From: Desulfobaccales bacterium
GTDB taxonomy: Bacteria > Desulfobacterota > Desulfobaccia > Desulfobaccales > 0-14-0-80-60-11
Direction of reading: 5' to 3'
Length of the DNA stretch: 64,000 nucleotides
Assembly (NCBI GenBank): GCA_037481655.1
Contig: JBBFLF010000009.1
Coordinates: 1 to 64,000 of the forward strand
Position 1 is the first letter of the stretch, and each line of letters opens with the position of its first letter. A program made the position numbers and the translations under genes. This document shows, one piece after another, positions 9,013 through 45,472 of this stretch. The notes beneath the pieces are model-generated. The model was not told the origin of the DNA. It saw only the letters and a program-made list of their open reading frames with translations, and searched no databases.

Positions 9013-10092
9013 ATGCTCTATCATCTGCTCTATCCCTTAAAGACGGTCTTCGGCGGCTTCAACGTCTTCCGCTATCTCACCTTCCGAAGCATCTTTGCGG
9101 TGCTCACGGCCCTGTTCATCACCCTGATCATCGGGCCCTGGGTCATCCGCAAGCTCAAGGAGCTGAGTTTCGGCCAGTATATCCGGGAGGACGGCCCCCA
9201 GTCGCATCATCAGAAGGCCGGCACCCCCACCATGGGCGGGCTGATGATCCTCTTTTCCATGGTGGTGACCACCTTGCTCTGGGCCGATCTCACCAATTTC
9301 TACATCTGGCTCCTCATCGGTGTGGCCCTGGGCTTTGGCGCCATCGGTTTCTGGGACGACTACCTCAAGGTGATCAAGAAGCACAACCGGGGCCTGAGCG
9401 GCAAGGCCAAGTTTTTCTGGCAGACGGTGGTGGCCACCCTGGTGGCCCTGGCCCTGTATGTTTACCCGGACTTTGAGACCACCCTCACGGTGCCCTTCTT
9501 CAAGGACATCAACCCCAACCTGGGGCTGGCCTTCCTGCCGGTGGCGGTGTTCATCATCGTGGGCACCGCCAATGCGGTGAACCTCACCGACGGCCTGGAC
9601 GGCCTGGCCATCGGGCCGGTGACCATCGCCGCCGCCTTTTATCTCATCTTCGCCTATCTGGCGGGGAACGCCCGCATCGCCGCCTATTTGCAGATCCCCT
9701 TTGTGAAGGGGGTGGGGGAGCTCTCCATCTTCCTGGCGGCCTTGGTGGGGGCGGGCATCGGCTTTCTCTGGTTCAACGCCTATCCGGCCCAGGTCTTCAT
9801 GGGGGATGTGGGCGCCCTGGCCCTGGGGGGCATCCTGGGCACGGCGGCCATCGCCGTCAAGCAGGAGATCCTCCTGGTGGTGGTGGGCGGGCTGTTCGTG
9901 GTGGAGGCCCTAAGCGTCATCATGCAGGTGTGCTTCTTCAAGGTGACCAACGGCAAGCGCATCTTCCGCATGGCGCCCATCCACCACCACTTTGAGCTCA
10001 AAGGCTGGCCGGAGCCTAAGGTCATTGTGCGCTTCTGGATCATCTCCCTGGTGTTGGGCCTGCTCTCCCTGAGCGCCCTGAAACTGAGGTGA
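9013..10092 (+). CDS. mraY: Phospho-MurNAc-pentapeptide transferase MraY
   Basis: A 359-aa polytopic enzyme with about ten membrane segments that transfers phospho-MurNAc-pentapeptide to undecaprenyl phosphate, forming lipid I. Catalytic and signature segments are intact: GTPTMGGLM in the first loop, [24 protein letters not shown] (Asp-rich catalytic site), and the [15 protein letters not shown] loop near the C-terminus. The length is almost identical to E. coli MraY. It lies between murF and murD in standard order, and its stop overlaps the upstream region of murD. Confidence 0.97.
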
Positions 10093-10094
10093 GC

Positions 10095-11456
10095 ATGGAG
10101 CTCAAAGGCGCCCGGGTCCTGGTGGTGGGGCTGGCCCGCACGGGGGTGGCGTTGGCGCGGTTTCTCAGCGCCCAGGGGGCTATCGTGACGGCCACCGACG
10201 CGGCCCCGGCGGAAAACCTGGCGGAGGCAATAAAAGCCCTGGACGGCCTCCCGGTGACCCTGGAACTGGGGGTGCCCCAGCCCGCCGCGGTGGAGGCGTA
10301 CGACCTCATCCTCCTCAGCCCCGGGGTGCCGCCGGAGCTGCCCTGGCTGGAGGCAGCCCGGCGTCGGGGCATCCCGGTGGTGGGCGAATTGGAGCTGGCC
10401 CGGCCCTTCCTCACCCTGCCCATCCTGGCCATCTCCGGCACCAACGGCAAGACCACCACCACCACCCTCACCGCCGAGCTCCTTCAGGCCGGGGGCTTAC
10501 GGCCCCTGGTGGGCGGCAACATCGGCACCCCCCTCATCTCCCTGGTGGAGGAACAGAGCGGGCATGACCTCCTGGTGTTGGAAGTCTCCAGCTTCCAACT
10601 GGACACCGCCCCGAACTTTCATGCCCATCGGGCGGCGCTCTTGAACATCACCCCGGACCATCTGGACCGCTATCCCGATTACAACGCCTATGTGGCCTCC
10701 AAGGCAGGGCTTTTCCGGCACCAGACCGCCGCCGATCTCCGGGTCCTCAACTTTGATGACCCGGGGGTGCGGGCTATGCAGGAGGGACCCGCCCGGGTGC
10801 TGTTTTTTTCCACCCGCCAGCCCCTGGCGGCAGGGGCCTGGCTGGAGGGGGAGACCCTGCGGGTGCGCCTGCCGGGCGGCCCCGATGCCGCTTTTCCCCT
10901 CGCCGACATCCGCCTGTCCGGCCGCCACAATCTGGAAAACGTCATGGCGGCGCTGCTTCTGGCCCTGGATGCCGGGGTGGCGCCGGCGGCCTGCCGGGAC
11001 GTGCTGGCCCGCTTCGCCGGCCTGCCCCACCGCATCCAGTATGTGGCCACCATCGACGGGGTGGAGTATTACGACGATTCCAAGGGCACCAATGTGGGCG
11101 CGGTGATCCGGGCCCTGGAGCAGTTTTCCCGGCCCGTGCTTCTCATTGCCGGCGGCCGGGACAAGGACAGCGACTTTTCCCTGCTGGCCCCGGCCATTAA
11201 AGCGCGGGTGCGCCACCTGGTGCTGCTGGGGGAGACCAAGGAGCGCCTGGCCAAAGCCTGGCAAGGCCTGGCGCCCATCCACCTGGTGGCGGACCTGGCC
11301 GAGGCGGTGCGCACCTGCCGCCGGCTGGCCCGCCCGGGGGAGGTGGTGCTGCTGTCCCCGGCCTGCGCCAGTTTCGATATGTTCCGGGATTACGCCCACC
11401 GTGGCGACACCTTTCAGCGCCTGGTGCGGGAGGCGGCTCATGGCCGGGGCATCTGA
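10095..11456 (+). CDS. murD: UDP-MurNAc-L-alanine:D-glutamate ligase MurD
   Basis: A 453-aa Mur ligase adding D-glutamate to UDP-MurNAc-L-Ala. It has an N-terminal Rossmann-like UDP-binding domain (VLVVGLARTGVALARFL), the ATP P-loop AISGTNGKTTTT at about residues 114-125, NITPDHLDRY in the central domain, and DSKGTNVGAV followed by IAGGRDKDSDF in the C-terminal domain. The ATG at 10095 is preferred over the GTG at 10089 because GAGG lies 5 nt before it. It overlaps the ftsW start by 17 nt. Confidence 0.95.
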   Translation: MELKGARVLVVGLARTGVALARFLSAQGAIVTATDAAPAENLAEAIKALDGLPVTLELGVPQPAAVEAYDLILLSPGVPPELPWLEAARRRGIPVVGELELARPFLTLPILAISGTNGKTTTTTLTAELLQAGGLRPLVGGNIGTPLISLVEEQSGHDLLVLEVSSFQLDTAPNFHAHRAALLNITPDHLDRYPDYNAYVASKAGLFRHQTAADLRVLNFDDPGVRAMQEGPARVLFFSTRQPLAAGAWLEGETLRVRLPGGPDAAFPLADIRLSGRHNLENVMAALLLALDAGVAPAACRDVLARFAGLPHRIQYVATIDGVEYYDDSKGTNVGAVIRALEQFSRPVLLIAGGRDKDSDFSLLAPAIKARVRHLVLLGETKERLAKAWQGLAPIHLVADLAEAVRTCRRLARPGEVVLLSPACASFDMFRDYAHRGDTFQRLVREAAHGRGI

Positions 11457-12624
11457 GGCCGTCAGCGGCCGGCAGGACCATCTCCTGCTCTATGCCACCC
11501 TGGGGCTGGTGCTCTTGGGCCTCACCAGCGTCTTCACTTCCAGCACCGTCATGGCCATGGCCCAATTCCAGGACCCCTATTACTTTGTCAAGCGGCAGGT
11601 TTTTTATGCCCTCCTGGGGTTGGCGCTGCTGTATATTGCCAGCCGCATCCCTTACCAGTACTGGAAGCCCCTGGTCTATCCTATCCTGCTCCTTTCCCTC
11701 ATCAGCCTCATTTTGGTATTTGTGCCCGGCATCGGGGCCAAAGTGCGGGGCGCGGCCCGCTGGCTGAAATTGGGGCCTTTGACCCTGCAGCCCTCGGAGT
11801 TCGCCAAACTGGCCCTGGTCATCTTCCTGGCCTACTCCCTGGCGCGCAAACAGGAGAAGATGAAGTATTTCGCCATCGGCTTTCTCCCCCACATGCTGGT
11901 GGCGGGAATTTTCATCCTCCTGATCCTCAAGGAGCCGGACTTCGGTACCGCCGTCACCCTGGCCCTGATCACCTTCATCATGCTGTTGGTGGGCGGTACC
12001 CGGGTGACCTACATCTTTTTCGCCTCCCTGGCGGGGCTGGTGTTGGGGACCTTGGCGGTACTCCGGGATCCCAAAAAATTCGCCCGCATCCTCTCTTTTT
12101 TGGACCCCTGGAAGCACGGTCAGGATGTGGGTTATCAATTGAAGCAGTCCCTCCTGGCCATCGGGTCGGGCGGGCTCATCGGGGTGGGGCCGGGGCAGAG
12201 CCGGGCCAAGCTCTTTTACCTGCCGGACGCCCACACCGATTTCATCCTGGCCATTTACAGCGAGGAATTCGGCCTGGTGGGGGTACTTTTGCTGCTGGCG
12301 CTCTTCACTCTGGTGACCATCCGCGGCCTGCGCCTGAGCCTGAGGGCTCCGGACGCCTTCGGGTCATACCTGGCCCTGGGCCTCACCCTCATCATCAGTC
12401 TCCAGGCCGCCATTAACATGGGGGTGGTCACCGGGATTTTGCCCACCAAGGGGCTGTCCCTCCCCTTCCTCAGCTACGGCGGCTCCAATCTCCTCACCAA
12501 CCTCCTGGCGGTGGGCATTCTCCTGAACATCAGCGGTCAGGTGAAGCAGCCTGCGGCCGTCGCCAGCCGCCTGCCCACGGGGGCTCCCGCCCCAGCGGCC
12601 GTCTCCGGTGAGCCTCCCCGGTGA
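11440..12624 (+). CDS. ftsW: Septal peptidoglycan glycosyltransferase FtsW
   Basis: A 394-aa SEDS-family membrane protein with about ten helices that polymerises septal glycan together with FtsI. Family landmarks include ARWLKLGPLTLQPSEFAKL, LKEPDFGTAV, GVGPGQSRAKLFYLPDAHTD (cited from GVGPGQSRAK) and the C-terminal TKGLSLPFLSYGGSNLL. The start at ATG 11440 has GGGAGG 6 nt upstream; it sits inside the end of murD, giving translational coupling. The C-terminal tail is Ala/Pro-rich and cytoplasmic. Confidence 0.95.
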   Translation: MAGASEAVSGRQDHLLLYATLGLVLLGLTSVFTSSTVMAMAQFQDPYYFVKRQVFYALLGLALLYIASRIPYQYWKPLVYPILLLSLISLILVFVPGIGAKVRGAARWLKLGPLTLQPSEFAKLALVIFLAYSLARKQEKMKYFAIGFLPHMLVAGIFILLILKEPDFGTAVTLALITFIMLLVGGTRVTYIFFASLAGLVLGTLAVLRDPKKFARILSFLDPWKHGQDVGYQLKQSLLAIGSGGLIGVGPGQSRAKLFYLPDAHTDFILAIYSEEFGLVGVLLLLALFTLVTIRGLRLSLRAPDAFGSYLALGLTLIISLQAAINMGVVTGILPTKGLSLPFLSYGGSNLLTNLLAVGILLNISGQVKQPAAVASRLPTGAPAPAAVSGEPPR

Positions 12625-12678
12625 CCGAGATCCCCTGAAGCACTTCTTCCACAGGCGGACAAAATTCTTTCCCGCTCC

Positions 12679-12707
12679 TTGACAATCCCTCAAAATGAGG
12701 CTAAGCT
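12679..12707 (+). promoter_or_regulatory. Probable internal promoter in the dcw cluster
   Basis: TTGACA (12679-12684), a 17-bp spacer and TAAGCT (12702-12707) lie after ftsW. The surrounding sequence resembles the mraZ promoter at 1901 (shared CCTTGACAAT, a run of A residues and GGCT). It would serve the small ORF at 12910 and possibly murG onward. No TGGGN repeats follow it. Confidence 0.5.
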
Positions 12708-12909
12708 GGCATCATCTCAGGTTACCCCTGATAAAGAATTAAGGTTTTTTCTTAGGGAAAGTGGCCGGCTGCATTTTTTCTCCGGGGAGCCTGACTGCCG
12801 CCCGGGCGGGGGCAGACGCCTTCTTGGCGGACATGACAGCCCTGAGCCTCACAGACCAGGGGGAGGAGAGGTGACGAGGCGGCGGCCAGGGTCCCAGGAG
12901 GGGGGGGAC

Positions 12910-13170
12910 ATGGACGTCCGGCGGGTGCCGGCCCAGGAAGCGGCAGCCCGGCGTTGGTTCGATTTCCTGGCGGCGGAGTGCACCCGCCGGGACGGCCTGC
13001 TGTGTTTCTACGACCAGGAAAAATCCTCCCGGGTGTTGAGCTCTTGTCAGGCTCTGGCCCGGCATCTGGAGGGCCAGGTGGCCACATCTGACTCTCCCGC
13101 TTCTGGGATGGGTCGGGAGGACGAACCCTGCCCCTTCTCCCTGCCCGCCGTGCCCAGGGGACCGGGCTGA
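12910..13170 (+). CDS. Small hypothetical protein (86 aa) between ftsW and murG
   Basis: An 86-aa reading frame that I do not recognise. Support for it being a gene is an AGGAG ribosome site (12896-12900) before the ATG and an upstream promoter-like sequence. An in-frame GTG at 12871, also preceded by GGAGGAGAG, would give 99 aa. The first half (WFDFLAAECTRRDGLLCFYDQEK) looks like a folded helical segment with two cysteines. The last 25 residues are low-complexity and may not be functional. No signal peptide or membrane helix is seen. The segment 13171-13444 before murG contains nothing else I can support. It could also be a chance ORF in high-G+C DNA. Confidence 0.4.
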   Translation: MDVRRVPAQEAAARRWFDFLAAECTRRDGLLCFYDQEKSSRVLSSCQALARHLEGQVATSDSPASGMGREDEPCPFSLPAVPRGPG

Positions 13171-16479: not shown

Positions 16480-17916
16480 ATGACCACTAGCACCACCTAC
16501 CACTTCATCGGCATCGGCGGCATCGGCATGAGCGGCCTGGCGGAGCTGTTGGTGCGTCAGGGCCACCCGGTGACCGGCTCCGATGTGGCCAGAAACGACA
16601 TCACCCGGCGCCTGGAGGCCCTGGGGGTGCGGGTTTACCTGGGACATGCCCCGGAGCATCTGGGGGAGGCCCAGGTGGTGGTGCACACCAGCGCGGTGAA
16701 GGAGGACAACCCCGAGCTGGCCGCGGCCCGGAAGAGAGGCCTGACGGTGCTCCGCCGGGGCGAGATGCAGGCCCGGCTGATGGCCCCCCACCGCCAGATC
16801 GCGGTCACCGGGGCTCACGGCAAGACCTCCACCACCGCCATGACCGCGGCGGTGCTCCGGGCTGGCGGGCTGGACCCCACGGTGCTCGTGGGCGCGGTGT
16901 GGGACAGCCTGGGGAGCAATGCGGTCCTGGGCGCGGGCGAGTGGTTTGTGGCCGAAGCCGATGAAAGTGACGGCTCTTTCACCTATCTCACCCCCGAGAT
17001 CAGCATCATCACCAACCTGGACCGGGAACACCTGGATTTCTACCGGGACCTGGAGCACGTCAAGGAGGTCTTTGCCGGGTATCTGGCCCACCTGCCTCCG
17101 GGCGCCCTGGTGGTGGCCTGGGAGGGCGATCCGCATTTGCAGGGGCTCCTCCGGGACTTCCCCCACCGCCGCCTCACCTATGGCCTCACGCCCGGGGCAG
17201 ACCTTTGGGCCGACCGCCTGGCGACCCGGGGGTTGAGCCAGCGCTTCCGCCTCTGGCGGGGGGAGCGCCCCCTGGGGGAGGTGCGCCTGCCCCTGGCGGG
17301 GCCCCACTACGTCCTCAACGCCCTGGCTGCGGCGGGCGTGGCCCTGGAGCTGGGATTGCCCTTTGCCGCCGTGGCCCAAGGGCTGGCCGAGCTGGGGGGC
17401 CTCAAGCGCCGACTGGAGGTGAAGGGGGAAGCGGCAGGGGTCATGGTCATCGACGACTATGGCCACCACCCCACGGAGATCGAGGCCACCCTGCGGGCGG
17501 TGGCCCAGGCCTTCCCGGGGCGGCGCCTCGTCACCGCCTTCCAGCCGCACCGCTACAGCCGCACTGAGGCGCTCCTGCCGGATTTCTTCCCGGTCTTTGG
17601 GGCGGCGCATCTGGTCTTCATCACCGAGATTTATGCCGCCAGCGAAGCCCCCCGGCCCGGGGTTTCCGGCCGGCTCCTCTGGGAGGGCATCCGGGCCCAC
17701 GGCCATGGGGGGGCCTATTTCGCGCCAGATCAGGCCACCTTGGCCGCGGCCCTCCTGGAGCGTCTAAAACCCGGGGATGTGCTTCTCACTCTGGGAGCCG
17801 GGGATATCTGGCGCCTGGGGGAGGAGATTCTCCGGCGCCTGTCCGGGGGTAGAAAGCGCACCGCAGCCACACCGCCTAAGGGAGCGGAACCATGTCCTGG
17901 AGTCCGTATGGCATAA
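16480..17916 (+). CDS. murC: UDP-N-acetylmuramate:L-alanine ligase MurC
   Basis: A 478-aa Mur ligase, the first amino-acid-adding enzyme of peptidoglycan synthesis. The UDP-binding GIGGIGMSGLAEL is near residue 12. The ATP P-loop is VTGAHGKTSTT (about 109-119), with EADESDGSF, NLDREHLDFY, and the C-terminal DDYGHHPTEI and FQPHRYSRTEAL all intact. No Shine-Dalgarno sequence precedes the ATG: the leader is the AT-rich right edge of the inserted module, so its expression signals may come from the insert. The C-terminus overlaps ftsQ by 25 nt. murB, usually next, is absent. Confidence 0.95.
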   Translation: MTTSTTYHFIGIGGIGMSGLAELLVRQGHPVTGSDVARNDITRRLEALGVRVYLGHAPEHLGEAQVVVHTSAVKEDNPELAAARKRGLTVLRRGEMQARLMAPHRQIAVTGAHGKTSTTAMTAAVLRAGGLDPTVLVGAVWDSLGSNAVLGAGEWFVAEADESDGSFTYLTPEISIITNLDREHLDFYRDLEHVKEVFAGYLAHLPPGALVVAWEGDPHLQGLLRDFPHRRLTYGLTPGADLWADRLATRGLSQRFRLWRGERPLGEVRLPLAGPHYVLNALAAAGVALELGLPFAAVAQGLAELGGLKRRLEVKGEAAGVMVIDDYGHHPTEIEATLRAVAQAFPGRRLVTAFQPHRYSRTEALLPDFFPVFGAAHLVFITEIYAASEAPRPGVSGRLLWEGIRAHGHGGAYFAPDQATLAAALLERLKPGDVLLTLGAGDIWRLGEEILRRLSGGRKRTAATPPKGAEPCPGVRMA

Positions 17917-18794
17917 GTCCGCCGCCCCGGCGCCAGGGTCTCCTGTCCCGCCTCTTTGGCCGACGGCGCAAAAACACCTTCCGCCGCCGGCCGGCAGGGG
18001 GTCGGGGCCGCTTCTGGCTTAGGCTCCTGCTGGTGAAAGTGGGGCTGGTGAGTCTGGCCGGTCTGAGCGTGGGTCTGGTGCTGCTCTATTATCATCTCTT
18101 GACCAGTTCCTATTTTTGTATTAAAGATGTCAATAATATTGAAATCAGCGGCACCAAGCGGCTCAGCCCGGAGCTTATCCGGGAGTTGCTCCAGGTGGGG
18201 CCGGACACCAATCTCCTGGCCTTCCGCCCCCAGCGGGCGGAGCAGATGCTGGCGGCCCATCCCTGGATTGCCCAAGCCCAGGTCAGTCGCCGCTGGCCCT
18301 CGAGGCTGACGGTCCGCATCACCGAGCGGGAACCGGTGGCCCTGGTGCAAGTGGGGGAGCTCTACTACGCCGACCGTCAGGGTCATCTGTTCAAGCCCCT
18401 CTCCCCTGGCGACCCTCTGGATTTTCCCGTGATCACCGGCTTGCAGAGGGAGGATTTCACCCCGGGCCAAGGAGGGCCGGTCATCTTTGCCCGCATCCTG
18501 GAGCTCATGGACGCACTCCGGGAGGCCCCGCTTCCCCTCCATCTCGGGAACATCTCGGAAATCCACTCTGACCCGGTGCGAGGCTTTACCGTGTACGCCA
18601 ATGGTCTCAAAAGCGGGGTACACCTGGGGCTGGGGGACTTTGCCGCCAAGGTGGAGAAATTCGCCCGGGTCTGGCCGGTGTTGGTCCAGCGGGGCTATGT
18701 CAGCCAGGTCAATCTCATTAATCTGGACTATCCGTTGCGGGTGCTCCTCACTCTGAAGGGCGGGGACGATTCCCCGGTAGGGATGGAGAGGTGA
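17892..18794 (+). CDS. ftsQ: Cell division protein FtsQ
   Basis: A 300-aa bitopic protein: an Arg-rich cytoplasmic N-terminus, one transmembrane helix (about residues 45-70), a POTRA domain beginning near IKDVNNIEISGTKRLSPELI (about 77-150), and the FtsQ/DivIB beta domain (ADRQGHLFKPL onward). It recruits FtsB/FtsL at the divisome. GGGAGCGG precedes the ATG. It overlaps murC by 25 nt and ftsA by 4 nt, indicating translational coupling. Confidence 0.92.
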   Translation: MSWSPYGISPPPRRQGLLSRLFGRRRKNTFRRRPAGGRGRFWLRLLLVKVGLVSLAGLSVGLVLLYYHLLTSSYFCIKDVNNIEISGTKRLSPELIRELLQVGPDTNLLAFRPQRAEQMLAAHPWIAQAQVSRRWPSRLTVRITEREPVALVQVGELYYADRQGHLFKPLSPGDPLDFPVITGLQREDFTPGQGGPVIFARILELMDALREAPLPLHLGNISEIHSDPVRGFTVYANGLKSGVHLGLGDFAAKVEKFARVWPVLVQRGYVSQVNLINLDYPLRVLLTLKGGDDSPVGMER

Positions 18795-20029
18795 CACAGG
18801 AACTCATCGTCGGACTGGACATCGGCACCACCAAGGTCTGCGCCGTGGTGGGGGAGGTGCGGGACCAGCAGCTGGACATCGTGGGCATCGGCACCGCGCC
18901 CACGGCGGGGGGCCTGAGGAAAGGCGTGGTGGTCAATATCGACACCACCGTGCGGGCCATCCGCAAGGCGGTGGAGGAAGCCGAGACCATGGCCGGCTGC
19001 GAAATCCGCTCCGTCTACACCGGGGTGGCGGGGGCCCACATCCAGGGACACAACAGCCACGGGGTCATCGTTATCAAGGACCGGGAGGTCACGCCCCTGG
19101 AGGTGGAGCGGGTGGTGGAGTCCGCCAAGCTCATGGTCTCGGTGCCGTCCGACCGGGCGGTGATCCACACCCTGGTGCAGGAGTTCCTCATCGACGGCCA
19201 GGACGGCATCAAGGACCCGGTGGGCATCCACGGGGTGCGCCTGGAGTGCCGGGTGCATATCGTCACCGCGGCGGTGAACGCCTTAAACAACATCGTCAAA
19301 TGCACCAACAAGGCCGGCCTGGAGGTGAGCGGCATCGCCCTGCAGGGGCTGGTCTGCGGCGAGGCGGTCCTCACCGAAGAAGAAAAGGCCTTAGGGGTGG
19401 CCTTGCTGGATTTCGGCGGCGGCACCACCGACTTGGCCATCTTCGCCGGCAATTCCCTGCGTTACAGTTCCGTCATCCCGGTGGCCGGCAACAACATCAC
19501 CAACGACATCGCCGTGGGCCTGCAGACCTCGCTGCCCAACGCCGAGGCCCTGAAGCGGGAATACGGCTGCTGCCTCAACGTCCTGGGACAGCAGGAGGAG
19601 CCCATCGAAATCCCCGGTCTGGGGGGGAGGCGGCCCCGGAGCATCTCCCGCCGGGAACTGGCGGAGATCATCCACCTGAGGCTCTCCGAGCTTCTGGGCC
19701 TCATCGCCAAGGAGATCCACCGGGCCGGTCCGGCGCACCCGGTCTTGGCCGGCGCGGTCATCTGCGGCGGCTCCTCCTTGATTCCGGGGCTGGAGCAACT
19801 GGTGGAGGAGACCCTGAACCTGCCCGCCCGGGTGGGCTATCCCCTGGTAACGGGCGGGCTCACCGACGTCATGCGGGACCCGGCCTACGCCACCGGGGTG
19901 GGGCTGGTGCTCTATGGCCACCGCTTGCAGCAGAGCGGTTCCTCCGGCCGCAGTCGGGGCGGCCGCAGCCGGGGCGGCAAAGGCGGCTTCTGGCCCCGCC
20001 TGAAGAAGTGGTTCCAGGAAGTGGTTTGA
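18791..20029 (+). CDS. ftsA: Cell division protein FtsA
   Basis: A 412-aa actin-like ATPase that tethers FtsZ to the membrane. The phosphate-1 motif VGLDIGTTKVCAVVGE is at the N-terminus, the SHS2-type 1C domain follows, and LLDFGGGTTDLAIF (phosphate 2) and AVICGGSSLIPGL (adenosine) are intact. The C-terminal amphipathic membrane-targeting helix GGFWPRLKKWFQEVV is preceded by a Gly/Ser/Arg linker. Translation starts at a GTG overlapping the ftsQ stop. Confidence 0.96.
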   Translation: MTQELIVGLDIGTTKVCAVVGEVRDQQLDIVGIGTAPTAGGLRKGVVVNIDTTVRAIRKAVEEAETMAGCEIRSVYTGVAGAHIQGHNSHGVIVIKDREVTPLEVERVVESAKLMVSVPSDRAVIHTLVQEFLIDGQDGIKDPVGIHGVRLECRVHIVTAAVNALNNIVKCTNKAGLEVSGIALQGLVCGEAVLTEEEKALGVALLDFGGGTTDLAIFAGNSLRYSSVIPVAGNNITNDIAVGLQTSLPNAEALKREYGCCLNVLGQQEEPIEIPGLGGRRPRSISRRELAEIIHLRLSELLGLIAKEIHRAGPAHPVLAGAVICGGSSLIPGLEQLVEETLNLPARVGYPLVTGGLTDVMRDPAYATGVGLVLYGHRLQQSGSSGRSRGGRSRGGKGGFWPRLKKWFQEVV

Positions 20030-20104
20030 GCCCAGGCAACCGGGAGAGCTTGGAAGACCGTCGTCACTGAGTGAGCATTTTGCATCGGGAAGTCCCGAGG
20101 GGGT

Positions 20105-21322
20105 ATGACACACATGAAGATTCAGCTGGTGCCCAGCGAACTCTCCGCCAAGATCAAGGTCATCGGCATCGGCGGAGCCGGCGGCAATGCCATCAACGAC
20201 ATGATCAGAGCCAACATGGTGGGGGTGGATTTCATCGCCGCCAACACCGATGCCATGTCCCTGGAGCGCAGCCTGGCCCCGGTGAAGATCCAGTTGGGGC
20301 CCAACGTCACCCGGGGCCTGGGGGCCGGCGGCAATCCCGAGGTGGGCCGGGAGGCCACCCGGGAGGAGGCGGAGCGCATCAAGCAGGTGCTCTCCGGGGC
20401 CGACATGGTCTTCATCGCCGCCGGCATGGGGGGCGGCACCGGCACCGGCGGCGCCCCGGTGGTGGCGGAGATCAGCCGGGAGGTGGGCGCCCTCACCGTG
20501 GCGGTGGTGAGCAAGCCCTTTGAATTTGAGGGCAAGATGAAGGCCCGCCTGGCGGACAAAGGCATCGATGAGCTGCGCCGGGTGGCGGACACCATTATCA
20601 CCATCCCCAACGACCGCCTCTTTGCCCTGGGCTCCAAAAACTCCCGCACCGCCGACATCTTTTCCCTGGCCAACGAGGTCCTGGGCGCCGCGGTGCGGGG
20701 CATCTCCGACCTCATCCTGGTGCCCGGCTTCGTCAAGGTGGACTTTGCCGACGTGCGCACCATCATGAAGGAAGGGGGCATGGCCCTCATGGGCACCGGC
20801 CAAGCCTCGGGGAGCGCCCGGGCCATGGAGGCGGCCAACAAGGCCATCTCCCACCCCTTGCTGGAGGACATCTCCATCCGGGGAGCCCGGGGCATCCTCA
20901 TCAACATCACCAGCAGCCCGGAGACCTTCACCATGGAGGAGCTCCGGGAAGTCTGCATGATCATCCAGAACGAGGCCCACGAGGACGCCCTCATCAAGTG
21001 GGGTCTGGTCTATGATGAGAGCCTCCAGGAAGACCTCAAGGTGACGGTCATCGCCACCGGCATCGGCAGCCGCACCGAGGTGAGCACGGAGGACCTCTGG
21101 CGGCCGCCGGCGCCGGAACCCGTCGAGGCGGTGGATGAGCTGGAGATCCCCACCTTCATGCGCCGGGGCAAGGACCTGCCTCGCTCCGGGGCCGAAGCCG
21201 GGGCGGAGAAACGTTCGGCGGCCCTGAGCTCCATGCCGGGCAAGAAATACATCGTCCATCCGGACCTGCAGTACGAGGAGAGCGAGCTGGACACCCCCGC
21301 CTTCCTGCGCAAGGTGGAATAA
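20105..21322 (+). CDS. ftsZ: Cell division GTPase FtsZ
   Basis: A 405-aa tubulin homologue. The tubulin signature GMGGGTGTG lies at residues 107-115, AANTDAMSL and NPEVGREATRE are in the GTPase domain, and the T7-type loop and GIGSRTEV region follow. A linker of about 50 residues leads to a conserved C-terminal tail ending DTPAFLRKVE, the FtsA/SepF-binding peptide. ATG 20105 has AGGGGG just upstream; ATG 20114 is an alternative three codons in. A 75-bp gap separates it from ftsA. It is the last dcw gene. Confidence 0.97.
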   Translation: MTHMKIQLVPSELSAKIKVIGIGGAGGNAINDMIRANMVGVDFIAANTDAMSLERSLAPVKIQLGPNVTRGLGAGGNPEVGREATREEAERIKQVLSGADMVFIAAGMGGGTGTGGAPVVAEISREVGALTVAVVSKPFEFEGKMKARLADKGIDELRRVADTIITIPNDRLFALGSKNSRTADIFSLANEVLGAAVRGISDLILVPGFVKVDFADVRTIMKEGGMALMGTGQASGSARAMEAANKAISHPLLEDISIRGARGILINITSSPETFTMEELREVCMIIQNEAHEDALIKWGLVYDESLQEDLKVTVIATGIGSRTEVSTEDLWRPPAPEPVEAVDELEIPTFMRRGKDLPRSGAEAGAEKRSAALSSMPGKKYIVHPDLQYEESELDTPAFLRKVE

Positions 21323-21611: not shown

Positions 21612-22811
21612 GTGGCCGCTGAACCGGCGCCCGTCTCGGTGGTCCATCTCATCACCAGCTTGGTGGTGGGCGGGGCCCAGATGCACCTGTATAAGACGGT
21701 CTCCCGCTTTGATCCCCGGCTGCTTCACAACACCGTCGTCTCCCTGGTCCCCCCGGGGCCGGTGGGGGCCCTGCTGCAGGAGGCGGGCATTCCGGTTTTC
21801 CACCTGGGCATGACCAAAGGCCGGCCCAACCCTTTGGGGCTGGCCAGGTTGGTGACTCTTCTAAGGCGCCTGCGGCCCCAGGTGCTCCAGACCTACCTCT
21901 ACCACGCCGACCTATTGGGGCTGCTCGCCGGCAGACTGGCGGGGGTACCCCGCATCTTCTGGAACCTGCGTCAATCCGTGATGGAGTTCGAGCGGTACCG
22001 GCGCACCACCGCCTGGACGGTGCGCCTGTCGGCCCGGCTCTCCCGCCGGGTGGACCTCATCCTGGCAAACTCCTGGGCCGGCGCCGACTATCACCGCCGC
22101 CTGGGATACGACCCCGAGCGCCTGCTGGTGGTGCCCAACGGCTTTGATCTGGAGCGCTTCCGGCCGGATCCGGAGGCTTACCGGGAGGTGCGCCGGGAGT
22201 TGGGCCTGCCTGCGGATCATCTCCTGGTGGGGATGTTCGCCCGCTTCGACCCCCAGAAGGACCACGCCACTTTCCTGGCCGCGGCGGCGCAGGTGGCCGC
22301 CTCGGTGCCCCAGGTCTCCTTTCTCCTGGCCGGCACCGGCCTCACCTGGGAGCATCCGGCCGTGGCGGCCCTGGTGCGAGAAAGCGGCCTGCCGCCGGAG
22401 CGTCTCGTCCTGATGGGCGAGCGCCGGGATATCCCCCGCCTGGCGGCGGCTTTGGATGTCTTTGTGCTCTCCTCCGCCTTCGGGGAGGGCTGCGCCAACG
22501 CCGTGGGGGAGGCCATGGCGGCGGGTGTCCCTTGCGTGGTCACGGAGGTGGGGGACTCCCCCCGGCTGGTGGGAGAGACCGGTCTGGTAGTGCCGCCCCG
22601 GGACCCGGAGGCCCTGGCCCAGGCGGTGGTGCAGCTGCTTTCCTTGGAGCCGACCCGGCGCCGCCTCTTGGGCGAGGCCGCCCGGGCCCGCATTGCCCGG
22701 CACTTTGCCCTGGACGAGATTGTGGCCCGTCTGACCCGGCTCTACCTGGAAGCCGCCCCGGCGAACCCCACCGGGACCCCGGCCCCGGTGAGCCTGACCC
22801 CGGTGGCGTAA
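21612..22811 (+). CDS. GT4-family glycosyltransferase
   Basis: A 399-aa retaining glycosyltransferase of the GT4/GT-B type. The N-terminal acceptor domain starts VVHLITSLVVGGAQMHLYK, including the GGAQ/GGAE-type loop. The donor domain carries VPNGFDLERFRPD, GMFARFDPQKDHATFL and the C-terminal FGEGCANAVGEAMAAGVPCV (E-x7-E type) motif. GTG 21612 has AGGAGG 7 nt upstream. It is the first gene of an envelope polysaccharide operon and ends 11 bp before the membrane protein. Sugar and acceptor cannot be deduced. Confidence 0.88.
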   Translation: MAAEPAPVSVVHLITSLVVGGAQMHLYKTVSRFDPRLLHNTVVSLVPPGPVGALLQEAGIPVFHLGMTKGRPNPLGLARLVTLLRRLRPQVLQTYLYHADLLGLLAGRLAGVPRIFWNLRQSVMEFERYRRTTAWTVRLSARLSRRVDLILANSWAGADYHRRLGYDPERLLVVPNGFDLERFRPDPEAYREVRRELGLPADHLLVGMFARFDPQKDHATFLAAAAQVAASVPQVSFLLAGTGLTWEHPAVAALVRESGLPPERLVLMGERRDIPRLAAALDVFVLSSAFGEGCANAVGEAMAAGVPCVVTEVGDSPRLVGETGLVVPPRDPEALAQAVVQLLSLEPTRRRLLGEAARARIARHFALDEIVARLTRLYLEAAPANPTGTPAPVSLTPVA

Positions 22812-22822
22812 AAGGAATGGCC

Positions 22823-25771
22823 ATGGATTCCCCGTGGGATGCTTTTCTCAGATTGGCGGCGGTGGCCAGCCTGCTCCTGGCTGGCCTGACGGCCCTGTTA
22901 GTGCGCCGGCGGGACCCGGTGGCCCGCATGCTCCTGGTCTTTTTCTCCGGCTGCCTGGCCTTTATCCTCCTGAACTGGAAGCTGGGCCTGGATCTGGGGC
23001 AATACGACTCCCGTCTCTACCATAACGTGGCCACCCAGATCAGTGAGTCCCTGAGGCGGCATCTGGTGCCCCCGTTGTCCGATCTCCTGGCACCCTACTG
23101 GGCCTATACCCTGCCTTTGGGCTTTCTCTACATCCTCTTCGGGAGCTCCCCCCTGGTGGGGCAGCTCCTCAACGTCGTCATGGGGGTCGGTTCCCTCCTC
23201 AACCTGCACCGTCTGGCCCGGCTGCTGTTTTCCCGCCGGGTGGCCGAGGCCACGGTGATCTTCGGCGCCCTCTATCCCTACGGCTGGGTGCTGGCCGGCA
23301 CCCTGAACCGGGACATGATGATCCTCTTTTTCCTCATCCTGCTCTTCCGGCTGCTGGCGGAGCTGCAGCTCCATCCGGATCTGCCGGGAAACCGGAGCAA
23401 GGCCCTCCTGGCCCTGTTTGCCATGGCTTACCTCACCTTGCTGCGGCCGCCGCTGCTCCTCCTCTGCGGCGTGGTGGGCGGGCTGTTTCTCTTCCAGGAG
23501 CGGCGCCGGCGGATGCCCCCCCGGCCCCTGTCCCGGCCGCTGAAGGTGGGCCTCCTCCTGGTGCTCTTTCTGGCGGGGGGCGGTCTCCTGTATCTTTTGG
23601 CCCCCAGCCTGACGCAGTTCAAAGTCGCGGTGCAGGCCGTGCAGTTTGCCGACATCGACAACCTCAACTACCGCCTGGAGAGCTCCGAGGAGGCGGCCTC
23701 CGCCTACATGAAGGGGGTGCGCTACTCCTCTTATGCCGATCTGCTGTGGGTCATGCCCCTGGCCACCTTTTATTTCATGTTCTCGCCTTTGCCCTGGCAG
23801 GTGGCCTCGGCCAAGCAGGCCCTGGGCCTGTTGGATTCTTTCCTGTTGATGGGGGTGGCCTGGTATTTCCTCCGGGGCTTCAAAGATCTTCGCCGCAGCC
23901 ACCGGGATTTCGCCCTGCTGCTGGCGGTGTATCTGCTGGTGGGTTTTTGCAGCAGCAGTCTCCTGCAGGCCAATGTGGGAGCCGCCATGCGGCACCGGAC
24001 GATGTTTTATTTCCTCATGTTTCCTGTAGCTGTGCAGGGATTTCTCACCCGCCGCCGGCGGCAGCCGGCCTCCCGGGTGAGCGGACATCATGCCGCCGAC
24101 GTGCGGCGCTGGAGGTCTTCCATGCTCCCCCAACCCCTTCGTGTCAGTGGCGGTATCACTCTTCTTGGCCTCATGGTCCTGTTGACGGTGCTGGTGGGAA
24201 GTTCCGTCACCTGCGCCGCCCTGCCCGCTCCTTCGGGCCAGTTCCCGGTGGTGGAGCTCAAGGCCGGCACCCAGCCCCCCGCCCTGACGGTGGCCGGGGC
24301 CGCCAATGAGTTCCTGGTGCTCCACTTCCGCCTGGGCCCCGTCGAGGCCGCCAGCTTCCAGGCCTCGGTGCGCGCCCTCAGCAAAGTCACCCTGCCTAAC
24401 CTCACCTGGCGTTTTTACCAGGTAGTGCGGGCTCCCGCCCAGGACACCTCCATCCCGGCGGAAGGCATGCTGCCGGTGGAGTATGGCCTCACTTCCCCCG
24501 GCGCTGCCCCCGAGTTTGTCCTGGTCCTGAAGATCCCTCCCGCCGCCCAGCGGGGCCAATACCCCTTTGAAGTGGTCCTGGCCGACAAAATCCGCACCTA
24601 CCGGCAAGTGCTGAACCTGAAGGTCTTCGGCTTTGCCCTGCCCAAGGACCTGCCCCTCACCATTTTCGGCGGGTTCTGGAATTACCCCGTGGAGTTCTAC
24701 TCCCAGTTCGGGGTCAGCGGCACGGCCCAGTACTTGGAGCTGATCAAAACCTACTACCGCAGTATGCGGGAATACAAGATCAACGCCCTGGGCGGGGCGT
24801 ATCCCCTGCCCCTGGCCGAGGTGAGTCCCGAGCGGCCGGTGGAGAGCTTCACGGATTACCACCAGCTGGTGAGTTTTGCCCTGGAAAACGCCGGCTTTCG
24901 CTATTTCATGATTCCCAAGGTGCGGAACTGGGAAACCTCTCAAGACCCCGCCGGGCCCTTCGCCACCCAGGCCAAGACCTTTTATCCCCTGTATCATCAA
25001 TACCTGACCCGCCATGGCTGGCTGGGGCGGGCCCTCAACTACCTCATCGATGAGCCCAAACCCGAGAAATACCCAGCGGTCTATCAGGCTTATGCCTTGG
25101 CCCGGGAATACGCCCCTAACCTCAAGACCCTGTGCGCCGGTTGGGATCCGGCCCCGGAGTTTACCAAGGTCATCAATATCTGGGCCACCCCGGCGGGGCA
25201 ATACCAGGAGAGCCAGATCCTGGCCCAGGCCGCCAAGGGCCAGAAACAATGGCTCTATGCCAACCGTCTCCACGCCATCGATCATCCCCTGGTGCATCAG
25301 CGACTCATCGGCTGGATTCTGCACAGCTATCCTTTCCAGGGTTATCTCTTGTGGGGGGTGAACTACTGGCCCGCCAACCCCTGGACCACCCCTCCGGGGA
25401 CGCTGGACTACTGGCGCCGGGGCACATTCTATTATCCTCACCCCCGAAACGGTCTCCCTGTGCCCACCCTCAGGCTGGAAGCCCTGCGCCGGGGACTTCA
25501 GGACTATCAATACCTCCTTCTCCTGAAGGAGGCGTATGCACAAGGGAAGGTCCCTGCCAATCGCTATACGGCCATCCAAAGCAAGGTGACCCAACTGACT
25601 CAGGGCCTGCGCAGCAGCAGTTTCCCGGTGACCATGCAGGAGCTGGAGAGTCTGCGCCTGGAGATTGCCGGCCTTCTGGATCCCACGGCGGCTTCTGGCC
25701 CCACGACCTCCCCCACCTCTACATCCGGTTCCACCGGCCTCAAGAAACTGTTGCCGCTCCTCGGCCGGTGA
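22823..25771 (+). CDS. Polytopic membrane protein fused to a DUF4091 glycoside-hydrolase-like domain
   Basis: A 982-aa protein with two halves. Residues 1-420 contain about ten membrane segments arranged like a GT-C glycosyltransferase or polymerase, with a conserved short loop DSRLYHNVA after the second helix and NRDMMILFFLI in mid-domain. A short basic linker leads to a second hydrophobic helix resembling a signal peptide (from Met434). Residues about 470-950 form a periplasmic region ending in clear DUF4091 features: IDEPKPEKYPAVYQAY, GYLLWGVNYWPANPW and RLEALRRGLQDYQYLLLL. DUF4091 proteins are glycoside-hydrolase-like. ATG 22823 has AAGGA 6 nt upstream. An internal ATG at 24122, with GGAGG (24111-24115) 6 nt before it, could produce the DUF4091 half alone as a secreted protein. 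Confidence 0.75.
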   Translation: MDSPWDAFLRLAAVASLLLAGLTALLVRRRDPVARMLLVFFSGCLAFILLNWKLGLDLGQYDSRLYHNVATQISESLRRHLVPPLSDLLAPYWAYTLPLGFLYILFGSSPLVGQLLNVVMGVGSLLNLHRLARLLFSRRVAEATVIFGALYPYGWVLAGTLNRDMMILFFLILLFRLLAELQLHPDLPGNRSKALLALFAMAYLTLLRPPLLLLCGVVGGLFLFQERRRRMPPRPLSRPLKVGLLLVLFLAGGGLLYLLAPSLTQFKVAVQAVQFADIDNLNYRLESSEEAASAYMKGVRYSSYADLLWVMPLATFYFMFSPLPWQVASAKQALGLLDSFLLMGVAWYFLRGFKDLRRSHRDFALLLAVYLLVGFCSSSLLQANVGAAMRHRTMFYFLMFPVAVQGFLTRRRRQPASRVSGHHAADVRRWRSSMLPQPLRVSGGITLLGLMVLLTVLVGSSVTCAALPAPSGQFPVVELKAGTQPPALTVAGAANEFLVLHFRLGPVEAASFQASVRALSKVTLPNLTWRFYQVVRAPAQDTSIPAEGMLPVEYGLTSPGAAPEFVLVLKIPPAAQRGQYPFEVVLADKIRTYRQVLNLKVFGFALPKDLPLTIFGGFWNYPVEFYSQFGVSGTAQYLELIKTYYRSMREYKINALGGAYPLPLAEVSPERPVESFTDYHQLVSFALENAGFRYFMIPKVRNWETSQDPAGPFATQAKTFYPLYHQYLTRHGWLGRALNYLIDEPKPEKYPAVYQAYALAREYAPNLKTLCAGWDPAPEFTKVINIWATPAGQYQESQILAQAAKGQKQWLYANRLHAIDHPLVHQRLIGWILHSYPFQGYLLWGVNYWPANPWTTPPGTLDYWRRGTFYYPHPRNGLPVPTLRLEALRRGLQDYQYLLLLKEAYAQGKVPANRYTAIQSKVTQLTQGLRSSSFPVTMQELESLRLEIAGLLDPTAASGPTTSPTSTSGSTGLKKLLPLLGR

Positions 25772-25787
25772 GGGAGAAAGGCGAGCC

Positions 25788-27026
25788 ATGCCCCCTGCCA
25801 TCGCTCACATTGTGACCACGTTTCTGCCGGTGAACACCACTGCCTGGGTCTCGGCGTTAATGGCGGACCAGCTCCGCCGGGGCTGCCGGGTGGAGCTGGT
25901 GGTGGGCCGGCACGCCGACCCGGAGCTCCTGGAAGCCCGCCGCCGGGAAGGGATCCGGGTGAGCCGCATTCCCTCCCTTCGGAAATATGTCCACCCTGTC
26001 AATGATCTCCAGGCCCTGGCAGCCCTTTACCGGCTCCTTGGTCGACTCAAGGTGGACATGGTCCATACCCACCTGGCCAAGGCCGGCGTCTTGGGCCGCC
26101 TGGCCGCCTTCCGGGCCGGGGTGCCCCTCATCCTGCACTCGGTTTACGGCGCCAGCTTCGCCCCCACCCAGCCCTGGTGGCGCTTCCGGGCCTTCCGGGC
26201 TCTGGAGCGGCTGGCCGGCCGCCGCACGGACGAATTCATCTTTGTGGGCCGGGAACTGGCCGATGCCTACAGGCGCCACGGGGCCTGTCCGCCGGATAAG
26301 GGCGTGGTGGTGTATTACGGCAAGGACCTGACCCCGTTTCTGGCCACTCCCCGCCTCACCCCCGAGGAACGGCGGGCCCGGCGGGCCGCCCGGGGCTGGC
26401 CCCCCGAAGCCCTCATTTTGGGGAATGTCTCCCGCCTGGTCCCCTGGAAGGGCCACCTGGACGGGCTCCAGGTCGTGGCCCGGCTGAAAGAGGCCGGCAT
26501 CCCGGTGCGCTACGTCATTGTGGGGGACGCCAAGACCCCCGGGGAGCAAAAGTACAAACGGCAGCTCCTGGCCGAGGTGGAGCGGCGGGGGCTTGAAGAA
26601 GAGGTGATCTTCACCGGCTGGCAGTCGGACCCGGCCTGCTTCTATCCGCTCTTCGATTTTTATCTCCTCACCTCCATGCCCTTTGAAGGGGTTCCCGGGT
26701 CGGTGATTGAGGCCGCGGTGTGCGGCGTTCCGGTGGTGGGCTATGACTGTTACGGCCTCAGGGAGATTCCGGGATTGCACTTCCGGTTGGCGCCTCACGG
26801 GGATACCCAAGCGCTGGCGGACCTGATCCTGGAGGAGCTCCCTCATCTGCCCGGACTGGCTGCCAGGTGCCGGCCTCATCCGGCCATCCTGGCCCAGGTG
26901 CAGGAGAGGTTCAGTCTCCCGGGCATGGTGAGCGCCACGGCCGAGGTGTATGAGAGGCTCCTCCGGGAGAAAATGCCCTCGCTCTGCTGGCAAGGGTCGG
27001 ACACTGCGGCAGAGGCTGCGGCCTGA
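25788..27026 (+). CDS. GT4-family glycosyltransferase
   Basis: A 412-aa GT-B fold glycosyltransferase. The N-domain has IVTTFLPVNTTAWVSALMAD and VHTHLAKAGVLGRLAAFRAG. The donor-binding domain has LGNVSRLVPWKGHLDGL and the MPFEGVPGSVIEAAVCGVPVV motif with both conserved Glu residues. The start at ATG 25788 has GGGAGAAAG upstream and lies 16 bp after the DUF4091 fusion gene, consistent with one operon. Substrate unknown; the context suggests extracellular or capsular polysaccharide. Confidence 0.88.
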   Translation: MPPAIAHIVTTFLPVNTTAWVSALMADQLRRGCRVELVVGRHADPELLEARRREGIRVSRIPSLRKYVHPVNDLQALAALYRLLGRLKVDMVHTHLAKAGVLGRLAAFRAGVPLILHSVYGASFAPTQPWWRFRAFRALERLAGRRTDEFIFVGRELADAYRRHGACPPDKGVVVYYGKDLTPFLATPRLTPEERRARRAARGWPPEALILGNVSRLVPWKGHLDGLQVVARLKEAGIPVRYVIVGDAKTPGEQKYKRQLLAEVERRGLEEEVIFTGWQSDPACFYPLFDFYLLTSMPFEGVPGSVIEAAVCGVPVVGYDCYGLREIPGLHFRLAPHGDTQALADLILEELPHLPGLAARCRPHPAILAQVQERFSLPGMVSATAEVYERLLREKMPSLCWQGSDTAAEAAA

Positions 27027-27069
27027 AGGGCGACGCACGCCAGACACGCTCAGGCAGGGAGAGAGAATC

Positions 27070-28377
27070 ATGTGGTCCTATCTTCTCACCAACGGTCGCC
27101 GCAAACGGATTCTCCTTCTCTTGGGAGATGCCCTTTTCCTCGGGGGGGTCGGTTTGCTCCTGGTCAATTTCACCCCCAACCGCCTTTCGGGACCATGGCC
27201 GATATTGCAGAGGGAGAGCTGGCTGCTTCTCGGGCTGGCAGGAGGCGCTCTGGTTTATGCGGCGCATCGGACCGGAAAGACCCTGAAACGCCCGGAAATC
27301 TTAACCCTGCTGGTGAGCGGGGGGCTGTGGGTGTCCTTCTGGCTGGCCTCCCCTCTCCTGCCGCTGGCCTCTCCTCCCCCGGTCTTGGTCCTGGTCCTGC
27401 TCACCGCGGCAGTGGCCTGTGCCTGGCATGGAGTGGCAAAGAGAGTATTTTTCCCCCCCATCCGCCTGGTGCTGGTGGGCCAGGACCCCTTCCTGGCAGA
27501 GATCAGCCGCCTCCTGGCCCATGAACCCAGCTCCTTTGAAGTGGCATGGAAAGCCGGCCTCTCCCACTTTCACCCCGGAGACCGTCTCCCCGAGCGGCAA
27601 CGCCCAATGGATGCCGTGGTCTATGGCCGGGATCTGGGATCGGACTGCGAACATCTTGTGCATCTGCGTCTTTGTGGCTTGCCCGTCTGGGACGCCGCCA
27701 CTTTCTACCAGAACCTCACCGGGCGGGTGCCCGTCGCCGCCATTTCTCCTGCCTGGCTGCTGGAGCAGGTCCGCCAGCGCCGGCTGGCCGGCCGGATCTA
27801 TATTTTCGCCAAGCGCCTCCTGGACCTCACCCTGGCCCTTCTGCTCCTGCCTGTGGCCCTGCCGGTCCTGGCGGTGTGCGCCCTGGCCATCAAACTGGAC
27901 AGCAAGGGTCCCGTCTTCTTTGTCCAGGAGCGTCTGGGGGAAGGCGGGGTGCCCTTTCGTCTTTACAAGCTGCGCACCATGGTAGTGGAGGCGGAGGCGG
28001 CCGGCCCGCAATGGTGCCGGGACCATGACCCCCGCATCACCCGGGTGGGGCGGATCCTGAGGCGCCTGCGTCTGGATGAGCTCCCTCAGATCTTCAACGT
28101 TCTCAAAAACGACATGAGCTTTGTGGGGCCGCGGCCCATCCGGGCCCATTTCACCGAGCTTCTGGCCCAAGAAATTCCCTTTTATCGCCTGCGCCTCCTG
28201 GCCAAACCCGGGCTCTCCGGCTGGGCCCAGGTGCATTCCGGGCATGCCAACACGGTGGCGGCCCATGCCCTGATGCTGCAGTACGACCTCTTCTATCTCC
28301 TGAACCGCTCCCTGCTTCTCGATCTCCTCGTCATCTTCAAGACCATCAAGGTGCTCCTCACCGGTCAGGGCCGCTGA
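27070..28377 (+). CDS. Undecaprenyl-phosphate sugar phosphotransferase (Bac_transf family)
   Basis: A 435-aa polyprenyl-phosphate glycosyl-1-phosphate transferase that would start repeat-unit synthesis by loading the first sugar phosphate on the lipid carrier. The N-terminal half has four hydrophobic segments (about residues 13-120) and a CoA-binding-like domain. The catalytic C-terminal domain begins with a membrane re-entrant helix (KRLLDLTLALLLLPVALP) and includes the signature KLRTMVVEAEAAG, RRLRLDELPQIFNVLKNDMS and GPRP, then KPGLSGWAQV. GGGAGAGAG precedes the ATG. It is the last gene of the polysaccharide operon. Confidence 0.92.
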   Translation: MWSYLLTNGRRKRILLLLGDALFLGGVGLLLVNFTPNRLSGPWPILQRESWLLLGLAGGALVYAAHRTGKTLKRPEILTLLVSGGLWVSFWLASPLLPLASPPPVLVLVLLTAAVACAWHGVAKRVFFPPIRLVLVGQDPFLAEISRLLAHEPSSFEVAWKAGLSHFHPGDRLPERQRPMDAVVYGRDLGSDCEHLVHLRLCGLPVWDAATFYQNLTGRVPVAAISPAWLLEQVRQRRLAGRIYIFAKRLLDLTLALLLLPVALPVLAVCALAIKLDSKGPVFFVQERLGEGGVPFRLYKLRTMVVEAEAAGPQWCRDHDPRITRVGRILRRLRLDELPQIFNVLKNDMSFVGPRPIRAHFTELLAQEIPFYRLRLLAKPGLSGWAQVHSGHANTVAAHALMLQYDLFYLLNRSLLLDLLVIFKTIKVLLTGQGR

Positions 28378-43754: not shown

Positions 43755-45344
43755 TCAGCCCCCGGCCGGCCGCCGGAGCAGAAGGCGCAGGGCATCATGG
43801 GCCTCGGGGATGCGGAGACGCAAAATGAGCAATCCGTACACTCCCACGCCGGCGGCCACAGCGGCGGCCACGGCTAAGAGGCGGCCCAGCACCCCCGCCG
43901 GGACAAGACCCGCCACAGCGTGGTGCACCGTGAGGGCCGCGCCGGCCATGACGCCGGTGGCCAGCCCCACCTTGACCAAAGTGACCAAAAGCTCCCTTAA
44001 AGGCAGGCCGTCCAGCCGCCGATGCAGCAGGGCCAGCAGGAAAAGCAGGCTGACGTTGCTGGCCAGGGACATGGACAGGGCGATGGCCCGGTGCTGCAGC
44101 GCCTCCAGGGTGAGGTGGATGAACACCAGGTTGGCGGCCACATTGAGAAAGCTCCCCGCCACCGGGATGGCCGTGTTGTTCAAGGCATAAAAGATGGGCA
44201 CCAGGATCTTGTTGGCCGAGAAGGCAAAGAGCCCCAGGGTGTAAAAGACCAGGGCCGCGGCGGTCTGGGTGGTGTCATAGGCGGTGAAGCGGCCGTATTG
44301 GTAGATGAGGGCACAGATGGGCTCGGCCAGCACCGCCAGCCCCGCCGCCGCCGGCAGGGTGAGAAGCATGGCCAAAGAGAGGGCGGCGCGACAGGCGTCC
44401 CGGAGCCCGGCCACATCCTCCCGGGCCGCCAGGCGGGAGGCCAGGGGCAGCGTGGCCACCGACAGGGCCACCCCGAAGAGCCCCTGGGGCAGGTGGTCCA
44501 GGCGGTAGGCGTAGTTCAGCCAGGAGATGGAGCCTTCCGGGCAGCGGGCGGCGTAGAAGGTGTTGATGAAGATATTGATCTGCGCCGCCGACAGCCCCAG
44601 CACCGCGGGCAGCATGAGGCGGAAGATCTGGCGCAGGCCCGGATCCCAGGGGTCGCATACCGCCCGGAAGCGAAAGCCCACCCGGAACAGGAGCGGCACC
44701 TGGACCAGGAGCTGGAGGAGGCCGCCGATGAGGGTGCCCACCGCCATGCCCACAATGGGGGGCTGGCCCACGTGGGGCGCCACGAAACTCAGCCCCACCC
44801 CGGCCACAATGGAGCCCAGATTGAAAAAGCTGGAGGCCAAAGCCGGAAGGAAGAACTTTCCCTTGGTATTGAGAATCCCCATGACCAGGGCGGCCAGAGA
44901 GACGAGGAGCAGGAAGGGAAACATGATGCGGGTCATGAGGGCGGTGAGCTCCAGTTTTCCCGGCACCTGGCCGAAATCCGGCGCCATCAGGCCCACCAGG
45001 GCGGGGGAGAAGTAAATCCCCGCCAGGGTGAGGCCGCCCACCACGATCATGAGAAAAGTCAGGACATTGTTGGCCAGCCGCCAGGTGCGCTCCGGCCCCT
45101 CTTTGGCGTCGTATTGGGAAAAGACGGTGACAAAGGCGGTGCTCAAGGCCCCCTCGGCGAAGAGGTCCCGGAGGAGATTGGGGATGCGGAAGGCCACCAC
45201 AAAGGCGTCGATGGCCCGGCCGGCGCCGAAAAAACCGGCAAAGACCTGCTCCCGCACCAGGCCCAGCAGGCGGCTGATGAGGACCGCCAGGCTCATGCTG
45301 CCGGCGGCCCGGGCGATGCTGCGAGTGGGCGGGGAGGTACTCAC
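43755..45344 (-). CDS. murJ: Lipid II flippase MurJ
   Basis: A 529-aa MOP-superfamily membrane protein with about fourteen helices that flips lipid II across the inner membrane. The N-terminal SRLLGLVREQVFAGFFGAG and FRIPNLLRDLFAEGALSTAF segments are the MurJ signature with the functionally important Arg residues. The transport core SFFNLGSIVAGVGLSF and INIFINTFYAA follow. Translation starts at a GTG. It lies downstream of a small membrane protein gene on the same strand, 128 bp apart, and upstream of nth. Confidence 0.95.
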   Translation of the reverse strand: MSTSPPTRSIARAAGSMSLAVLISRLLGLVREQVFAGFFGAGRAIDAFVVAFRIPNLLRDLFAEGALSTAFVTVFSQYDAKEGPERTWRLANNVLTFLMIVVGGLTLAGIYFSPALVGLMAPDFGQVPGKLELTALMTRIMFPFLLLVSLAALVMGILNTKGKFFLPALASSFFNLGSIVAGVGLSFVAPHVGQPPIVGMAVGTLIGGLLQLLVQVPLLFRVGFRFRAVCDPWDPGLRQIFRLMLPAVLGLSAAQINIFINTFYAARCPEGSISWLNYAYRLDHLPQGLFGVALSVATLPLASRLAAREDVAGLRDACRAALSLAMLLTLPAAAGLAVLAEPICALIYQYGRFTAYDTTQTAAALVFYTLGLFAFSANKILVPIFYALNNTAIPVAGSFLNVAANLVFIHLTLEALQHRAIALSMSLASNVSLLFLLALLHRRLDGLPLRELLVTLVKVGLATGVMAGAALTVHHAVAGLVPAGVLGRLLAVAAAVAAGVGVYGLLILRLRIPEAHDALRLLLRRPAGG

Positions 45345-45472
45345 GGAGCGGACCGGGGTGATCCCGGGCGGTTCATGGACGCCGCCTCATCCCCGGCCGG
45401 GGGGCCATGGATCTCAGCAGGGTTCGGAAGCAGGGCCAATAAAACGGCGGCATCACAGCCGGAGGCCGGGGC

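Follow-up and report, generated by a model that had tools for sequence, protein, structure and literature searches.

Glycoside hydrolases encoded alongside the synthesis genes of their own polymer are exemplified by PelA, PgaB and PslG (PMC9894940, PMC5933820), and the action of PelA yields Pel as a secreted polymer of low molecular weight (PMC9894940). The beta-N-acetylgalactosaminidases NgaDssm (Group 3), NgaCa (Group 1), BvGH123 and CpNga123 belong to the GH123/DUF4091 enzymes, in which nine residues are conserved across the characterised members and the expected chemistry is substrate-assisted cleavage of a beta-N-acetylhexosamine linkage (PMC11087588). Membrane-anchored polymer synthesis and chain-length processing are combined in one polypeptide in the cyclic beta-1,2-glucan synthase Cgs, which is composed of GT84, cyclase and GH94 domains, with all soluble domains cytoplasmic (PMC10901819). 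The gene described here lies in a 64,000-nucleotide stretch of Desulfobaccales DNA (the window), and joins a GH123/DUF4091-type hydrolase to a membrane transferase inside a polysaccharide cluster, unlike the described GH123/DUF4091 enzymes. It differs also from PelA, PgaB and PslG, which are separate polypeptides of other GH families. The likeness to Cgs is one of principle only, since the domain families are unrelated and a domain search of the fused gene found neither GT84 nor GH94; nor does the available part of the Cgs account (PMC10901819) describe a separate-gene start of the kind found here at 24122. Cgs nevertheless makes it an overstatement to call the coupling of synthesis and trimming in one polypeptide unusual, as the first-pass annotation of this DNA had done. 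A literature search on internal-start fusions and on GT-GH exopolysaccharide fusions yielded no usable precedent.

That annotation had read a single frame of 982 codons uniting a membrane domain with a DUF4091 region, and this is borne out: the frame, as read from the sequence, is free of stops throughout, and both of its domains have been matched (Table 1). An ATG at 22817, two codons 5' of 22823, is an equally possible start. An antisense stop-free frame also spans the whole fused gene (22898-25801 (-) in the window, 9962-13171 in L002 and 9851-13159 (-) in L003, the homologous loci discussed below), with a length of 967 to 1102 codons across the three species; high GC codon usage is the probable cause. 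Elsewhere in the window, a 581-codon frame at 44022-45767 (+) is without any Pfam match.

Table 1. Features of the fused gene and of the neighbouring cluster genes, in window coordinates.
Feature	Position	Strand	Evidence
Fused gene, 982 aa	22823..25771 (start possibly 22817)	+	Open frame; L002 and L003 likewise open
Likely GT-C-like membrane glycosyltransferase domain, residues 1-410	22823..24052	+	PMT_2, AglB profile, AlphaFold2 model
Linker, residues 411-433, Arg-rich, probably cytoplasmic	24053..24121	+	dN/dS, codon positions, substitution rate
Retained RBS and hydrolase start: GGAGG (24111-24115), 6-nt spacer, ATG (24122-24124)	24111..24124	+	Kept in three species; separate-gene starts
Signal-peptide-like segment, residues 434 to ~466, SVTCAALP at end	24122..24220	+	Hydropathy, alignment
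GH123/DUF4091-type hydrolase, residues ~467-982, catalytic pair D743/E744	24221..25768	+	PF13320, 8k2j, AlphaFold2/Foldseek
GT4 glycosyltransferase, same cluster	21612..22811	+	PF13692 4.8e-29
GT4 glycosyltransferase, same cluster	25788..27026	+	PF00534 4.1e-22
Polyprenyl-phosphate sugar transferase, initiating enzyme	26950..28377 (true start probably further downstream than 26950)	+	PF02397 6.6e-62; TIGR03025 1.1e-86

The C-terminal half had been taken for a DUF4091 hydrolase-like domain, and the domain search agrees. The former DUF4091 domain is now GH123_cat (PF13320) in Pfam, and is matched here at 8.5e-20 to 2.5e-19, with a score of 70.2 bits that lies above the curated cut-off of 23.1. 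The sequence-profile match to NgaDssm (8k2j, 3.9e-38) is well ahead of that to GH123 proper. The AlphaFold2 model (mean pLDDT 85.5) has an N-terminal beta-sandwich followed by a TIM barrel, and Foldseek aligns it with 8k2j at E 3.1e-26 and TM 0.67, the 22 best PDB matches all falling in the GH123/DUF4091 superfamily. The domain shares with the characterised beta-N-acetylgalactosaminidases the beta-sandwich, the (beta/alpha)8 barrel with its DUF4091 region, and the consecutive catalytic Asp-Glu pair, DEP being kept in all eight family homologues. As mapped by eye, seven of the nine conserved residues (PMC11087588) are present: D743, E744, the substrate-site residues Y812 and W844, and G840, Y871 and R884. 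The other two, at fold-stabilising positions, are replaced (by eye, in NgaLy numbering, D95 by Glu, E547, and W115 by approximately F565), and identity to the nearest solved enzyme is about 20%. By these resemblances the domain is probably of hexosaminidase type, cleaving a beta-N-acetylhexosamine (GalNAc-type) linkage, though its activity could differ, given the replaced D95 and W115 equivalents.

The N-terminal half is likely to be a GT-C glycosyltransferase, an assignment short of proof because the Pfam match (PMT_2, 19.6-21.5 bits) is under the curated cut-off of 26.1. A sequence-profile match to AglB (1.2e-4) and a predicted model of moderate confidence (AlphaFold2, mean pLDDT 71.9), for which the best Foldseek matches are ArnT and oligosaccharyltransferases (E 1.3e-3, probability 1.00), uphold the earlier description of this half as membrane glycosyltransferase-like. 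Hydropathy gives about ten membrane helices ahead of the signal-like helix, and AlphaFold2 suggests a few more. Asp62, invariant in six of six homologues, lies in the first periplasmic loop, the side being assigned from the positive-inside pattern. The transferase would share this Asp and the predicted fold with ArnT, AglB/PglB/OST and PMT, but it is shorter than these and its sequence similarity to them is weak. Such a domain would use a lipid-linked sugar donor, and would either build or decorate the polymer.

The fused frame is open in all three genus members examined: this genome, G001 (locus L003) and G002 (locus L002). These are separate MAG assemblies of different species, in which the gene is 85-86% identical to that in the window over 982 residues, with identical distance across the junction. 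A survey of relatives, as the first-pass annotation had proposed, found the two genes adjacent but separate in sister genera: in G003 the 433-aa transferase stops 7 nt before the hydrolase ATG, in G011 the genes adjoin with an ATGA overlap, and in G014 there is a 25-nt gap. The G003 locus corresponds in its setting too: it follows ftsZ, has a GT4 gene on either side, and is succeeded by a sugar-phosphate transferase gene. Of the two signs of error named at the outset, separate genes in relatives are thus found, whereas a frameshift at the junction is not. The two-gene relatives might suggest that two real genes have been joined by an assembly or sequencing artefact, but the recurrence of the same continuous frame, with the same junction spacing at this degree of divergence, in three separate MAGs renders this exceedingly improbable, and it was rejected; because the assemblies are separate, a frameshift error can in practice be dismissed. 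No other hydrolase of the GH123/DUF4091 family stands in a fused frame among 395 genomes of the phylum, and a scan of genome contigs, which detects close relatives only, found no fusion beyond the genus. The adjacent genes in sister genera, together with the lack of any fusion elsewhere in the phylum, argue that the fusion is derived and, as far as the phylum was searched, confined to this genus. Within the order, every genome in which the transferase subfamily was found carries the hydrolase as well, one weak match in G005 included.

An in-frame ATG at 24122 (residue 434), 6 nt after a GGAGG and opening a hydrophobic helix (residues 441-459, hydropathy 2.22), had been remarked upon from the start, and it has gained in weight. 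It aligns with the start codons of separate hydrolase genes (L019, L020 and L021), and the GGAGG, the spacing and the ATG are invariant in the three fused species, with Shine-Dalgarno (SD) strengths of -10.5 (this window), -9.5 and -9.3 kcal/mol. The SD at the first start of the gene, 22823, is weaker, at only -5.6 kcal/mol. SD strength was rejected as sole proof of an internal start: it is equalled at 29 of the 686 plus-strand ATGs in the window (4%), and the ATG of residue 296, likewise in frame, reaches -10.6, so that the motif alone is not beyond chance. The internal start is convincing on comparative grounds, namely where it lies, the fact that three species conserve it, and its homology with the start of a separate gene.

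The linker, defined for the dN/dS comparison as running from the last conserved transferase residue to the internal ATG, has dN/dS of 1.8-4.2 in the three fused species, against 0.17-0.20 for the transferase, 0.10-0.33 for the hydrolase and 0.36-0.61 for the signal segment. Its substitutions are spread over all codon positions without an excess at the third, and accumulate at about the rate of nearby intergenic gaps. These comparisons indicate a peptide that is free of purifying selection and evolves like intergenic DNA, with no sign that the peptide itself matters. Its 69 bases contain no stop, where about 1.1 would be expected under neutrality (P ~0.3), and no indel, where about two would be expected; both absences are compatible with chance, and selection holding the linker open is not demonstrable. 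Separate genes in sister genera, an intergenic-like linker and a retained start together point to a fusion that is recent and specific to the genus.

On balance we favour an in-frame merger of two coupled genes in which the internal start was kept, with the products and role set out here. The ancestral exopolysaccharide cluster would have had the two genes side by side and coupled in translation, and these would then have merged in frame. Probably the 3' end of the first gene, a tail free of constraint, suffered a mutation that shifted it into the frame of the second with loss of its stop, while the ancestral RBS and ATG of the hydrolase gene survived. Initiation at 22823 would then necessarily give the full-length fusion, and initiation at 24122 the ancestral, separate secreted hydrolase. 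Most likely both are made, and a signal-peptidase cut of the fusion is also plausible. In the full-length protein the Arg-rich linker would stay cytoplasmic, the signal-peptide helix would span the membrane and the hydrolase would fold in the periplasm, either anchored behind the transferase or released by signal peptidase after SVTCA/SVTCAA. Whether by dual start, fusion or cleavage, every route would deliver the hydrolase to the periplasm, where it may trim the exopolysaccharide as PelA does for Pel. The Cys of SVTCAA was inspected by eye as a lipobox and gave no match. A gene fusion appears here to have been caught early, with coupled genes in sister genera, an unselected linker and the second start signal still in place; as an evolutionary novelty it is real yet modest.

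It is given a little less than an even chance that the gene yields mainly the full-length chain, which signal peptidase then cuts after about residue 465-467. The membrane transferase and the freed periplasmic hydrolase would then stand at 1:1, and being fused would make no functional difference. The junction has every part of a signal peptide, its hydrophobic core intact; the species share SVTCAALP but differ in the h-region and linker; and cleavage is what descent from a secreted hydrolase would predict. Against this, T or C at -3 with A at -1 is acceptable without being the classic AxA. The cleaved chain and the dual start overlap and are not mutually exclusive, and our confidences in them overlap likewise. 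FbcH, the cytochrome b/c1 precursor of Bradyrhizobium, is a polyprotein to which the cleaved, functionally silent fusion can be likened; a literature search on the FbcH polyprotein gave no usable match. It seems rather unlikely that the one gene purposefully makes two forms, a hydrolase tethered at the exit site and a free hydrolase from a selected start, whose ratio would set polymer length or release. Less likely still is that the fusion is the functional form, with the tether serving to link synthesis with trimming or release, and the start at 24122 only a relic. The open frame in three species and the lack of indels despite intergenic-like divergence speak for such a role, but a linker dN/dS of at least 1.8 and the retained GGAGG speak against it, the missing stop being uninformative and the missing indels weak evidence; the strong SD at 24122 could, however, be a mere remnant still to be lost. 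The functional coupling suggested by the first-pass annotation is weakened accordingly by a linker without protein-level selection, and further by two-gene relatives that presumably do the same job unfused. The anatomy of the gene is real and well supported, and functional coupling is offered as a proposal.

A superfamily known mainly for the breakdown of GalNAc glycans would here be linked to exopolysaccharide assembly, a link that is testable. The genes murC, ftsQ, ftsA and ftsZ (16480-21322) immediately precede the polysaccharide cluster, and the G003 cluster is preceded by frames that agree with this set in order and length. Wza, Wzc and Wzx are located elsewhere in the genome. Locus L051 (7748-17286, G000:C10) is of the Wza/Wzc/Wzx type and includes a PAPS-reductase-domain protein; with a sulfatase-like protein encoded elsewhere in the genome, its polymer is possibly sulfated. 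In L024 (G027:C18) and L023 (G005:C59) a homologous hydrolase gene lies directly 3' of a polytopic membrane gene in a Wza-Wzc cluster; the membrane gene has no Pfam match and was read by eye as Wzy/ligase-like. The hydrolase thus adjoins a membrane gene in G005 and G027 too, which points to a recurrent theme of hydrolase coupled to membrane assembly enzyme, with the fusion as one variant. The 11.8-kb exopolysaccharide locus of L023 and L024 is 99.99% identical in two MAGs assigned to different families, reflecting either cross-binning or very recent transfer. At L024 (1793-4651 (-)) the TGA of the membrane gene is followed at once, in the same frame, by the hydrolase ATG, and a single stop codon is all that separates this arrangement from a similar fusion.
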